Program-made: the position numbers and the translations under genes
Assembly (NCBI RefSeq): GCF_030814655.1
Contig: NZ_JAUSVK010000001.1
Span: 5,897,001-5,961,000 of the forward strand
DNA from: Labrys monachus
GTDB taxonomy: Bacteria; Pseudomonadota; Alphaproteobacteria; Rhizobiales; Labraceae
Length of the DNA stretch: 64,000 nucleotides
Direction of reading: 5' to 3'
The notes under the pieces: model-generated
The model's database searches: none
Told to the model about the DNA's origin: nothing
The model's input: only the letters and a program-made list of their open reading frames with translations
Shown here: piece after piece, positions 29,779 to 34,489 of the stretch
Layout: the number at the start of each line of letters is the position of its first letter
Position numbering within the stretch: position 1 is the first letter of the stretch

Positions 29779-30431
29779 CGGAGGAAATTGCCGATCAAGG
29801 CGAGGCCGAGCGCCTGGCTCTTCTCGGGATGGAACTGGGTGCCCACCATGTTGGCGCGCCCGACCATCGCCGTGATCGGGCCGCCATAATCGGCCTCGGC
29901 GATCACGCTGCCGGGATCGGAGGCGGCCAGATGGTAGGAGTGGACGAAATAGGCGTGCAGCCCGTCCGGGCCGGTCGGAATGCCCTCGAGCACCGGGTGG
30001 TTGCGCAAGACGCGCAGGGTGTTCCAGCCCATATGCGGTACCTTGAAGGCGGGATCGGCGGGCCGGATCGCCGTGACGTCGCCGCCGATCCAGCCGAGCC
30101 CCTCGGTGGTCTCGAATTCGAGGCCGCGTTCCGACATCAGCTGCATGCCGACGCAGATGCCGAGGAACGGCCGCCCGCGGACCGTCACCGCCTCGCCGAG
30201 CGCCTCGATCATGCCGTCGACTGCCGCCAGCCCGCGCTTGCAGTCGGCATAGGCGCCGACGCCCGGCAGGACGATGTGGTCGGCCCCGGCGACGAGGTCG
30301 GGGTCGGCGGTGAGGCGGATCTGCGTCGCCAGCCCGCTATCCGCGGCGGCCCGCTCGAAAGCCTTCACGGCGGAATGCAGATTGCCCGAACCATAGTCGA
30401 TGATGGCGGCGATCACGTCCGTGCCCCCCAT
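29766..30431 (-). CDS. hisH: Imidazole glycerol phosphate synthase, glutamine amidotransferase subunit
   Basis: HisH hydrolyses glutamine and passes ammonia to HisF. The 221-residue class I amidotransferase has the nucleophile cysteine in [14 protein letters not shown] and the His-Glu pair in [10 protein letters not shown]. The start overlaps the DUF2628 stop by 19 bases and the stop overlaps hisA. A GTG or ATG a few codons downstream ([12 protein letters not shown]) is an alternative start. Confidence 0.97.
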
Positions 30432-30913
30432 GGCTCCGGAAACAGGCCGAGCACGGCACCATGGCCGGCATCGGGGCGCGTCGGGCCGGCGGGCGAGGAC
30501 GCGGCGGGAGGCGCCGGCGGCGCGGACGGCGGCGGCATACGTCCCTCGAAATGGCGGCTCTCGGCCTCGGTCAGGTCATGCCCGCAGGCGATGCCGGCCA
30601 GGCGCCATCCCTTGCGCCGCAGCGTCCAGCAGCGCAGCGCGCCGGCCTCGAGTGCGAAGAGCCAGGCGAACAGCAGCGACAGGCCGGCAGCCCACATGTC
30701 GCCCATATGCAGGGCGAAGGCGACGGCGCGCAGCACGACCTCGGCCGCCAGCCAGAACAAAAAGGCCAGCCACATGCGCTGCCACAGGAGCCAGAGCGGG
30801 GCGAAGAGGAAGGCGGGGAGGCTGAAGCCGTCCTTGACGAAGACGGAGCCGTCGGCTGCCGCCAGGGTGCCCGGCGCCGTGGCCCGGGGTTCGAAGACCG
30901 TCCAGCTCGCCAT
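30413..30913 (-). CDS. DUF2628 membrane protein inside the his operon
   Basis: A 166-residue protein with the DUF2628 layout. A short N-terminal cytoplasmic part (MASWTVFEP) is followed by three or so hydrophobic segments ([49 protein letters not shown]). A proline-rich tail ([14 protein letters not shown]) ends it. It begins 1 base after the hisB stop and overlaps hisH, so it is firmly part of the operon. The same gene sits at this place in other Rhizobiales. Its function is unknown, and a direct role in histidine synthesis is not established. Confidence 0.9.
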
Positions 30914-30914
30914 G

Positions 30915-31508
30915 TTATGCTCCGAGCTTGCCCTTGGTGGTCGGCAGTTCGCCGGCCATGCGCGGATCGATGGCGATGGCGGCACGCAGCGCCCGCGCCA
31001 GCGCCTTGAAGCAGCTCTCGGCGATATGGTGGGCATTGGCGCCGTAGAACGTCTCGACATGCAGGGTGATGCCGGCATTCATCGCGAAGGCCTGGAACCA
31101 TTCGCGCACCAGTTCGGTGTCGAAGGTGCCGATCTTCTCGCGTGGGAACTCGACGCGGAACACCAGGAAGGGCCGGCCGGAAATGTCGACGGCGGCGCGC
31201 GACAGCGTCTCGTCCATCGGCAGCATGGCATCGGCATAGCGCATCACCCCCTTGAGGTCGCCGAGGGCCTTGCGGAGCGCCTGGCCGAGGGCGATGCCGA
31301 CATCCTCCACCGTGTGGTGGTCGTCGATATGGAGATCGCCCTTGGCGCGCACGGTGATGTCGATGAGCGAATGGCGCGCAAGCTGCGCCAGCATGTGGTC
31401 GAAGAAGCCGACGCCGGTCTCGATATCGTGCCGCCCGGTGCCGTCGAGATCGACGGACACGGAGACCGAGGTTTCGTTGGTGGTGCGCTCGACGGCGGCG
31501 CTGCGCAT
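30915..31508 (-). CDS. hisB: Imidazoleglycerol-phosphate dehydratase
   Basis: HisB dehydrates imidazole-glycerol phosphate. The 197-residue monofunctional enzyme carries the manganese-ligand motifs in [22 protein letters not shown] and [15 protein letters not shown]. It is the first gene of the hisB–DUF2628–hisH–hisA–hisF–hisE–coaA operon. The promoter should be in the 257-bp gap to the divergent serpin gene, where hslVU is commonly found in relatives. Confidence 0.98.
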
Positions 31509-31765
31509 GGAAAGGCCCTCGGACCGGATGGACGCAGCCTTATAGCGGGACGACTCCCGGCGGGGAAGCGCAAGTTTGGCGCGATTGCGACGCCCCTTCC
31601 GCCCTGCTCGCGCAGCGCCGAAGCGGCTCGGCCGATCGCAGCAGGCCCCGCCTCACCTCACCCCGCCCCGTGCAGAAGGTGCTCCATGATACAGCGCAGG
31701 CATGGCATGATGGCTATCACGGGACGGATCCGGACGTGCGGGCGTCCAGCGGGGGAGGCAAGGGC

Positions 31766-32965
31766 ATGCGCAGGCGGTCATTGGCGATGGGAGTGGCGGC
31801 GGCCCTGATGGCCGTAACGGGATGCGCCTTCGCGCAGCAGGGCGCGCCCGCCGGGCCGGCCGCGCGCTGGTCGGAGGCTTCGGCGAGGCTGGGCTTCGAC
31901 CTCCTCGGCCAGCCGGCCAAGGCCAAGGCGCCGCCCAATCCGGCCGTCTCGCCGGCGAGCCTCGCGGCGGCGCTTTCGCTGCTCGACATCGGCGCCGACG
32001 CCCCCTTCCGCCAGGCGCTGCGCACGGTGCTGCGGCTCGACGACGCCCCCTCCGACGGCCTCGCCGCCCTGCGGGGAACGCTCGCCCCCCTGCTGGCGGG
32101 CGGCGGCTCAGGACCGCTCTCCGGCGTCGGCGCCGTCTATTTCGATCCGAAATCCGAACCGCTGCCGGCGGCGATCGAGCTCCTGCGCAAGGCCGGCGCC
32201 CAGGCCGAGGTGAAGGACCTTTCCGATCCGGCCACGGTCGCGGCGATCAATGCCCTGGTCAAGGACCGCACCGGGGGCCTCATTCCCGGCATCCTCGATG
32301 CGCCGCTGACCAAAGGCGGCCTCGTCGTCCTCGACGCCCTGCATTTCAAGGACGACTGGCAGACGGCCTTCGATCCTTCCCGCACCACGCGGACGGACTT
32401 TCATCCGGCCGGCGGCCGGCCCGTCAAGGTCGCCATGATGCAAGGTCGGGAAGAAGCCCTGCCCGTGCGCCGGGAGGGCCGCTTCCTCGCCGTCGCGCTG
32501 CCCTACAGGACCAAGGACTATTCGCTCATCCTGATCACCACCACCGACGGTCCGGCGCGGCTCGCCGATTTCGCGCCCGTGGCCGGCTGGCTGTCGGGCG
32601 AGGGCTTCGCCGACAAATATGTGACGGTGGCGCTGCCGCGCTTCACCATCAGGGCCGGCGGGGATCTCCTGGCCGGGCTCGACGACAGGGGCCTGAAGCC
32701 GGCCCGGCTGTCGCCGACGGCGCTTTCGGGCTTCTCGTCCCGCCCGCAGGCCATCGACAGGATCGTCCAGAAGGTCGTCATCGCCGTCGACGAGAAGGGC
32801 ACCGAGGCCGCAGCCGCGACCGCGATCACCACCACGCGCAGCATCGCCGGCCCGCCCCCGCTCGCCTTCGTCGCGGACAAGCCGTTCCTGTTCGCCCTGC
32901 ACGATGCGGCGAGCGGGCAGACGCTGATCGAGGGCTATGTCGGCGACCCCTCCAAGGCGAAGTAG
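31766..32965 (+). CDS. Serpin family protein, exported (putative lipoprotein)
   Basis: A 399-residue serpin, an uncommon fold in proteobacteria that traps serine or cysteine proteases. The N-terminal signal MRRRSLAMGVAAALMAVTGC ends in a lipobox-like VTGC (C20); signal peptidase I cleavage after AFA is the alternative. Serpin landmarks follow: INALVKDRTGGLIPGIL (161-177), VVLDALHFKDDWQTAFDP (187-204), VALPRFTI (288-295), and a textbook inhibitory hinge EKGTEAAAAT (343-352). The reactive loop continues ITTTRSIAG, with R358-S359 the likeliest scissile bond. The start is the ATG at 31766 after GGGGGAGG. It is divergent from hisB and 120 bases before gshB. The target protease is unknown. Confidence 0.9.
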   Translation: MRRRSLAMGVAAALMAVTGCAFAQQGAPAGPAARWSEASARLGFDLLGQPAKAKAPPNPAVSPASLAAALSLLDIGADAPFRQALRTVLRLDDAPSDGLAALRGTLAPLLAGGGSGPLSGVGAVYFDPKSEPLPAAIELLRKAGAQAEVKDLSDPATVAAINALVKDRTGGLIPGILDAPLTKGGLVVLDALHFKDDWQTAFDPSRTTRTDFHPAGGRPVKVAMMQGREEALPVRREGRFLAVALPYRTKDYSLILITTTDGPARLADFAPVAGWLSGEGFADKYVTVALPRFTIRAGGDLLAGLDDRGLKPARLSPTALSGFSSRPQAIDRIVQKVVIAVDEKGTEAAAATAITTTRSIAGPPPLAFVADKPFLFALHDAASGQTLIEGYVGDPSKAK

Positions 32966-33085: not shown

Positions 33086-34027
33086 ATGAAACTGAATGTC
33101 GCCGTGCAGATGGACCCGATCGAGCGCATCAACATCAGGGGCGATTCGACCTTCGCCCTCATGCTGGAGGCGCAGGCCCGCGGCTACCCGCTGTCCGTCT
33201 ACACGCCCGACACGCTCTCTCAGCGCGACGGCGTGGTCTCCGCGCTGACGAAGCCGGTCACCGTGCAGGATGTCGAGGGCGACCATGTCAAGTCCGGCGC
33301 CACCGTCCGGACCGACCTGACCAGCTTCGACGTCATCCTGCTGCGCCAGGACCCGCCCTTCGACATGGGCTATGTGTCGACGACGCATCTGCTCGACCGC
33401 GTCCATCCCAAGACGCTGGTGGTGAACGATCCCTTCCATGTCCGCAACGCGCCCGAAAAGATCTTCGTCACCGAATTTCCCGACCTGATGCCGGCGACGC
33501 TGATCACCCGCGACAAGGCCGAGATCGAGGACTTCAGGGCCGAGCACGGCGACGTGGTGATGAAGCCGCTCTACGGCAATGGCGGCGCCGCGGTGTTCAA
33601 GGTGGCGCGGGAGGATCCGAATTTCGGCTCCCTCTTCGACCTGTTCTCGACGATGTCGCGCGATCCCTGGGTGACGCAGCGCTTCCTGCCGCGCGTGGTG
33701 GAGGGCGACAAGCGCATCATCCTGATCGACGGCGTCGCCGCAGGAGCGGTGAACCGCGTGCCGCAACCCGGCGACATCCGCTCCAACATGGTGCGCGGGG
33801 GCGCCGCCAAGCCGACCGACCTCAGCCCGCGCGAGCAGGAGATCTGCGAGCGCATCGGCCCGTCCCTGCGCGAGAAAGGCCTGCTCTTCACCGGCATCGA
33901 CGTCATCGACGGCCATCTCACCGAGATCAACGTGACCTCGCCGACCGGGCTCAGGGCGATCCAGCGCCTGGGCGGCCCCAATCTGGCGGTGCCGATCTGG
34001 GACGCGATCGCCGCCAAGCGGTCATAG
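33086..34027 (+). CDS. gshB: Glutathione synthetase
   Basis: GshB ligates gamma-glutamylcysteine and glycine with ATP. The 313-residue ATP-grasp protein begins [20 protein letters not shown], the family N-terminus. [34 protein letters not shown] and [15 protein letters not shown] are characteristic. The start is the ATG at 33086, although the frame is open 22 codons upstream. It follows the serpin gene on the same strand but with a 120-bp gap that may hold its own promoter. Confidence 0.98.
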
Positions 34028-34153
34028 GCGCTGCCGTTTCCCTAACGAAAGCATATTTTAAGTGGCGCGCGGTCTTGAATCGTGCGCTAATCTTCAGTGC
34101 ACAGTTTCTTGTCGTGCAATCAAAACCGCTTTTATCGGGAGGCAAGAACGTCG

Positions 34154-34489
34154 ATGACCGATCTGGCAACCTATATCGCCGACATCAAGAAATATACGTC
34201 CAATACAAACGAGGCCGCGGTCGCCGGCATCGTCCGGCATCTCGGCATTGCACTGCGCAACAGGGATTCTTCTCTCGTGGCGGGCAAGGACCCCGCCGAA
34301 CTCGCCCGTCTCCGGGACGGCTTCCTCAAGAAGAAGCTTGCCCTGACGGATGACGACAAGAAGCTCGATGCCGCCATCCAGTCCGTCATCGAGAAGCTCA
34401 AGGCGGATCACACCAAATCGCGCGTGACGGTCTGCTACCTGCTCGCCGAGCATTTCAAGAAGCTCGATTTGTTCGTGAAGCCGGCCTGA
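34154..34489 (+). CDS. DUF2853 family protein
   Basis: A 111-residue soluble protein that matches DUF2853. It starts MTDLATYIADIKKYTSN, continues EAAVAGIVRHLGIALRNRDS and LARLRDGFLKKKL, and ends SRVTVCYLLAEHFKKLDLF. It is helical and charged, without a signal peptide. The start is the ATG at 34154; the frame is open 19 codons upstream, but the family begins here. The 126-bp upstream gap after gshB is comparatively AT-rich and likely holds a promoter. The function of the family is unknown. Confidence 0.88.
   Translation: MTDLATYIADIKKYTSNTNEAAVAGIVRHLGIALRNRDSSLVAGKDPAELARLRDGFLKKKLALTDDDKKLDAAIQSVIEKLKADHTKSRVTVCYLLAEHFKKLDLFVKPA

Follow-up and report, generated by a model that had tools for sequence, protein, structure and literature searches.

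A serpin of Labrys monachus belongs to a lineage linked to a trypsin and orthocaspase module

The soil bacterium Labrys monachus has a single serpin match in its 6.92 Mb genome, in a gene between hisB and gshB, and the locus raises the question of which protease such a protein would inhibit and where it came from. The features used below lie in the window, the whole stretch of 64,000 nucleotides that was analysed:

31766..32965, + strand: serpin gene, 399 amino acids, ATG start, open frame (Pfam and best solved relative)
31753..31758, + strand: likely ribosome-binding site GGGAGG, 7 bases before the ATG (sequence)
31766..31834, + strand: predicted signal peptide, residues 1 to about 23 (sequence, pattern check)
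31823-31825, + strand: Cys20, last residue of the lipobox-like VTGC (sequence)
32792..32821, + strand: hinge EKGTEAAAAT, residues 343-352 (sequence, alignment)
32837..32842, + strand: proposed scissile bond Arg358-Ser359 (sequence, loop comparison)
30918..31508, - strand: hisB (IGPD), divergent neighbour (Pfam PF00475)
33086..34027, + strand: gshB (glutathione synthetase), downstream neighbour (Pfam PF02955, PF02951; start picked from sequence)

Serpin (PF00079) is the single Pfam-A family in the protein (E = 1.3e-51; score 176 bits, cut-off 27), and the match spans positions 2-370 of the 370 in the profile. The best solved relative by sequence is conserpin (5cdx; E = 2e-28, residues 31-395 aligned), and the serpin of Labrys sp. 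KNU-23 is 62% identical to that of the window. Judged by title, the 50 PDB entries that Foldseek ranks highest against an AlphaFold2 model (mean pLDDT 83.6, pTM 0.83) are all serpins, with query TM values of 0.71-0.77, and the best of these include entries titled as latent or cleaved forms (5cdz, 2pef, 3eox, 3cvm). Its weakest parts are the signal peptide and residues 358-367, the segment with the proposed scissile bond. The check that the earlier note had set on the fold of sheet A has a divided outcome: the serpin fold is present in the model, but hinge residues 345-355 appear as an added strand, as in loop-inserted serpins. Given this strand and the latent and cleaved matches, what the model supports is the fold of a serpin whose hinge can insert, not the native state.

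The hinge fits the inhibitory pattern Glu-x-Gly-Thr-(Glu)-Ala-Ala with small residues at P12-P9. Together with the Pfam match and the modelled fold it bears out the earlier reading of the gene as a serpin with an inhibitory hinge, and the positions given there for the hinge, for R358-S359 and for C20 were all confirmed in the sequence. Most shutter and breach residues are kept, the exceptions being N186, which is replaced by Asp190, and H334, replaced by Gln335. Gln at 334 is common among 79 other bacterial serpin loci (44/79); Asp at 186 is rare there (1/79) and among the Labrys serpins occurs in the window's copy only. These 79 control loci were found by patterns that include AVDEKGTE and are thus uninformative on hinge conservation and no random sample.

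The loop counts 29 residues from the hinge Glu to the residue before KPF; in conserpin, which carries the antitrypsin loop, the corresponding stretch up to RPF has 26. The prime-side loop is therefore longer than that of alpha-1-antitrypsin, as had been claimed. P1 is usually the 17th residue when the hinge Glu is taken as the first, and Arg358 is the 16th counted from Glu343. The lineage's loops with Arg at 16 are for this reason one residue short and, if Arg358 is P1, the N-terminal loop to P1 has 16 residues, which is within one or two of the usual number. According to a review (PMC6379291, in the sections drawn on here), a loop shorter by one or two residues lowers the efficiency of inhibition and leaves the stability of the complex unaffected, and lengthening destroys that stability. 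In three of the five Labrys serpins the Arg is the 15th residue, two short of the usual count, and this spacing may weaken inhibition.

The sequence AVTGC of the window's protein fits a lipobox pattern with Cys at +1, and AFA|QQ, directly behind Cys20, could be cut by signal peptidase I. The suggestion that the serpin is a lipoprotein holds to the extent that VTGC and C20 are present in this one protein; the Cys is not conserved, being absent from the signal-like starts of the other four Labrys serpins, and lipidation as a general trait of the serpin, or of the lineage, is therefore rejected. Lipobox-like starts are common elsewhere (45 of 107 extracted serpin sequences). Three Labrys serpins (L111, L112 and L113) have a twin-arginine-like SRRALM in a signal peptide that lacks a lipobox.

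One serpin is found in each of the five Labrys family genomes, always in the order hisB-serpin-gshB, with the gene intact and the hinge unchanged. A recent gain by one strain is rejected on account of this shared place, and so was a phage origin, with a single weak match among 50,697 phage records. Among 11 further genomes examined from the order, 6 instead have a gene with an HslV start next to hisB (the one tested belongs to PF00227), which favours the view of the earlier note that the serpin arrived later at the his locus. Its statement that serpins are sparse in proteobacteria also agrees with the counts: a serpin is present in 16 of the 397 genomes sampled from the order (Labrys supplying 5), in 9 of the 385 from the class and in 7 of the 398 from the phylum, in samples that overlap and each include the Labrys genome itself. 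The Labrys serpin is under purifying selection and evolves faster than its neighbours. In three close Labrys pairs its dN/dS is 0.14-0.17, against 0.02-0.09 for hisB and gshB; in comparisons with the window's copy the values are 0.34-0.65 and 0.15-0.29, and the rough estimates for distant Labrys pairs put the serpin at up to 0.76. Around the locus, a gene of the his cluster with a DUF2628 domain (PF10947, window 30413-31078, - strand) is matched in all four other Labrys genomes, and as called its open reading frame overlaps hisB, probably through the choice of start. A DUF2853 protein (PF11015, window 34097-34489, + strand) downstream of gshB has a tblastn match in three of the four.

The origin of the gene can be approached through a tree of 50 serpins, made from 26 of the 79 non-Labrys bacterial loci and 24 proteobacterial rows. 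On one side of a starred branch (97/99) stand 19 alphaproteobacterial rows, on the other 31 that come from many phyla, and the Labrys serpins are embedded in a starred clade with 14 members, all from their order. The 19 rows consist of the five Labrys serpins, 13 serpins linked to a protease module and one unlinked member (L087); by these starred branches the Labrys serpins are members of the module-linked lineage. Four other alphaproteobacterial serpins (L086, L097, L107 and L098) fall among the 31, and linkage to the module changes state three times on the tree. Near-identical pairs (L092/L093, L090/L091 and L100/L102) were counted separately; L003, which is from the genome of L006, the short or diverged matches L103-L105 (G416, G644) and the fragment matches L108-L110 (G883 and G804) were left out of the counts.

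The module that accompanies the lineage consists of exported OmpA-type, orthocaspase and trypsin-(pseudo)caspase-DUF4384 proteins, and 13 of the 14 non-Labrys members adjoin it or a part of it. A caspase-like gene lies near 13 of the 14 and a trypsin near 12, and the linked members come from seven families (f11, f24, f28, f31, f45, f131 and f133). At ten loci 5-153 bp separate the end of the trypsin gene from the start of the serpin behind it (20 bp at L223), with starts picked by a hydrophobicity rule on which the gaps to the upstream gene depend. Elsewhere the arrangement is looser: at L089 an OmpA-type gene is next door and the trypsin further upstream, at L096 the trypsin and caspases lie within a 14-kb stretch and are not adjacent, and in G345 (L094/L124) the serpin starts 38 bp after an orthocaspase gene with His and Cys, with no trypsin found in 26-70 kb of contig. 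The remaining member, L087, has no module gene nearby, and a fusion lies on another contig of its genome. Trypsin- or caspase-profile neighbours were found at none of the 79 other bacterial serpin loci (945 kb) and at none of five other proteobacterial loci outside the lineage (L126, L219-L221 and L224). The profiles were built from the alphaproteobacterial loci themselves, where presence of the module rests on tblastn, except that the caspase-like genes of L118 and L119 were found by profile only (E = 1.9e-8 and 4.2e-7).

The same arrangement is found on Rhizobium plasmids. In five annotated plasmids a gap of 13-14 bp lies between the stop codon of a fusion gene, whose product of about 840 amino acids combines trypsin, caspase and DUF4384 domains (PF00089, PF00656 and PF14326), and the start of the serpin; OmpA/DUF4384 and caspase genes stand upstream of the fusion and a protein kinase gene follows the serpin. 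The plasmid trypsin domain was matched in 89 records (88 Rhizobium and one Neorhizobium) and the serpin in 91, of which 87 are Rhizobium and one Neorhizobium; the two lie 2794-2840 bp apart on at least 26 of the 40 serpin plasmids listed. Gene tables, themselves incomplete, show no serpin at the module of Neorhizobium or in one further case.

Co-occurrence of serpin and fusion is strong in the class sample, where a serpin is present in 4 of 4 fusion genomes versus 5 of 372 others, and moderate in the order sample (4/10 versus 12/387). In these counts the two best candidates per genome were scored, with E limits of 1e-3 for the order and 1e-20 for the class; the class count drew on 376 genomes versus 385 and may miss some serpin genomes, and the ten fusion genomes of the order sample were picked by eye. 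Six genomes of the order sample have the fusion without any serpin match (G155, G138, G265, G336, G229 and G281), and the serpin is therefore not an obligatory part of the module. One of them, G155, has an otherwise complete module and shares its genus code with G276, whose serpin is linked. The trypsin-caspase-DUF4384 fusions of these six serpin-less genomes are at L207-L211 and L213. Distances in the serpin and trypsin trees are correlated (Mantel r = 0.63, p = 0.0001, 12 taxa), which may merely mirror species descent.

The specificities of serpin and trypsin also match. In proteases of the chymotrypsin fold, Asp189 gives a preference for Arg or Lys, and Asp189 with an intact active-site motif is present in all 12 serpin-linked trypsins; it is also present in the seven module trypsins that have no adjacent serpin. 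All 13 linked serpins carry an Arg in the bait loop, at the 16th residue in 12 of them and the 17th in one, and the Arg is kept in all five Labrys serpins though these are unlinked. In the 79 other bacterial loci an Arg is found at residues 15-17 in 9 of 69 distinct loops, and it stands at 16 in three (L097, L107 and L098) out of six additional proteobacterial serpins that lack a linked module. The unlinked member L087 has no Arg at that position. Two lipobox serpins outside the lineage, L219 and L221 (G578 and G947), have an Arg at the same loop position, and G578 has a pair of neighbouring trypsin-like genes on a contig other than that of the serpin. Arg358 as P1 is well supported by these comparisons, and the earlier proposal of a P1 Arg directed at a trypsin-like enzyme gains from the conservation of the Arg in the lineage and from the Asp189 trypsin near 12 of the 13 linked relatives.

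Which enzyme of the module would be the target is indicated by the state of its caspases. In three f133 relatives caspase 1 is dead, with Ala and Gly in place of His and Cys, and the trypsin, the serpin and its Arg persist; several fusions have Gln in place of His in their caspase part. On both counts the trypsin is the steadier enzyme, and it is the likeliest serpin target in the lineage. DegP had been put forward for inhibition tests beside trypsin-like proteases. Since the nearest relatives lie in a protease operon, it is not the natural first candidate, and the P1 Arg with a linked Asp189 trypsin likewise points away from it as the natural target.

In Labrys itself the serpin and the module have come apart. 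Profile searches found no trypsin or caspase gene beside the serpin in the window or in the his-locus stretches of the five Labrys genomes, and the module genes lie at about 2.3518-2.3585 Mb of the same genome (L148, 9827-16542), away from the serpin. They encode an exported-looking caspase 1 with intact His and Cys (about 2.3518-2.3533 Mb), a caspase 2 with a DUF4384 tail in which Glu and Ser replace His and Cys, a cytochrome c/DUF4384 protein and an OmpA-type protein. This pair of one live and one dead caspase is found in all five Labrys genomes; the OmpA-type gene is in reach in three of the other four, and in the fourth the locus is cut by a contig end. A search of the five genomes for the module trypsin gave no close relative, and just two weak matches, both in L. 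monachus. The eight PF00089 matches of that genome comprise three with GDSGGP, which have Gly at 189, and others that look HtrA-like or odd. With no module trypsin and PF00089 matches unlike it, the linked target is missing in Labrys.

In the best reading of these sequences, the lineage would serve as a built-in inhibitor of the protease module: its linkage and the match of Arg to Asp189 are observed, and inhibition we infer. The ancestor would have been the built-in inhibitor of the OmpA-type, orthocaspase and trypsin-(pseudo)caspase-DUF4384 proteins. The serpin would be exported and act in the periplasm or at the envelope, where an Arg/Lys-specific protease would take the loop as bait, cut after Arg358 and, if the general serpin mechanism applies, be trapped by insertion of the loop. 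In Labrys, the serpin would then have come to stand alone between hisB and gshB, with an intact and a dead orthocaspase left elsewhere and the trypsin absent, and its likeliest present target may be the orthocaspase or another Arg-cutting protease of the envelope. We consider it probable that the Labrys protein is an exported, inhibitory serpin that derives from the module's built-in inhibitor and now faces the orthocaspase or another Arg-cutting enzyme. There is perhaps an even chance that the lineage as a whole consists of operon-borne irreversible inhibitors of their own exported protease cascade, and that in Labrys the inhibitor has outlived the trypsin and restrains the remaining orthocaspase.

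The Labrys serpin might, instead, be directed outward and shield the envelope from trypsin-like proteases of a host, predator or competitor, as ecotin guards other Gram-negative bacteria against foreign enzymes of this kind, and the operon link of its relatives would then be uninformative for Labrys. A stand-alone gene with no linked trypsin, an Arg kept in all five genomes and a rate of evolution above that of hisB and gshB are consistent with such a role, as is the action of miropin and siropins on host proteases (PMC8233489, in the parts used here). However, the tie of the lineage to one protease family argues for an ancestral inner target and nothing within the window points to a host, which makes outward defence rather unlikely. 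Plant serpins such as AtSerpin1 are known to inhibit metacaspases, and the Labrys serpin may in the same way cross protease classes and inhibit the remaining exported orthocaspase, a cysteine protease that would cut after Arg or Lys. The abstract of PMC6426788 describes orthocaspases as cutting after positively charged, basic residues; caspase 1 keeps its His and Cys in all five Labrys genomes, and in G345 the serpin directly follows an orthocaspase with an intact dyad and no trypsin was found. Against such a brake on a caspase stand the three f133 relatives, which keep serpin and trypsin alongside a dead caspase 1, and the lack of linkage between caspase and serpin in Labrys, and we hold it to be unlikely. 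The serpin could also be a relic that is drifting, or has turned non-inhibitory, after loss of the trypsin. The Asp at N186 that the window's copy alone has among Labrys, the Gln at H334, the 15-residue spacing in three Labrys serpins and the high, roughly estimated dN/dS of distant pairs would fit this explanation, which is nevertheless quite improbable given the low dN/dS of close pairs and the unchanged hinge and intact gene in all five genomes.

Periplasmic or membrane-anchored bacterial serpins are already known (PMC8233489, in the sections drawn on here). Prokaryotic serpins of groups S, T and U, such as miropin, siropins, the Bifidobacterium serpin, tengpin and thermopin, are described in that source with the same fold and inhibitory hinge as the Labrys serpin, and like it are mostly exported and sparsely distributed; their functions, as given there, concern host proteases or are unknown, whereas the relatives of the Labrys serpin have a matching trypsin encoded in the operon. 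Among the titles listed in searches of the open literature, no gene link between a serpin and a trypsin was found; nor was any paper on the Labrys serpin, and the match of a search for bacterial orthocaspases and serpins concerned a green alga. The serpin of the window is thus a member of a known family, and a lineage whose target protease is built in would be a novel form of it. The staphopain-staphostatin gene pair resembles the lineage in that an inhibitor is encoded beside its own protease, and differs in that staphostatins are small and are not serpins.

Proteins of Alphaproteobacteria that join a trypsin, a QC pseudo-orthocaspase and DUF4384 have been described (PMC6426788, in part), and with their N-terminal trypsin, full triad, pseudo-caspase and DUF4384 they correspond to the module protease found here beside serpins; the word serpin is absent from the main text of that paper as consulted. 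For these proteins the lineage offers a candidate regulator. Its linkage makes it possible to name, and to test, a natural target for a bacterial serpin, and the proposed role, if true, would mean that proteolytic cascades braked by serpins exist outside eukaryotes, as a counterpart of those in animals and plants. Members of the same lineage include the serpins of R. johnstonii 3841 pRL11 (RL_RS32720, WP_011655311.1), a laboratory strain whose trypsin gene is RL_RS32725, and R. etli CFN 42 p42e (RHE_RS24700). Rhizobium serpins, among the 40 plasmid matches listed, are 38.0-39.5% identical to the Labrys protein over 68% of the query, and three of them (L090, L091 and L130) have Arg-Ser at the same place in the loop; they stand in a run of DUF4384/OmpA, caspase, trypsin, serpin and kinase genes, whereas the Labrys gene stands alone.
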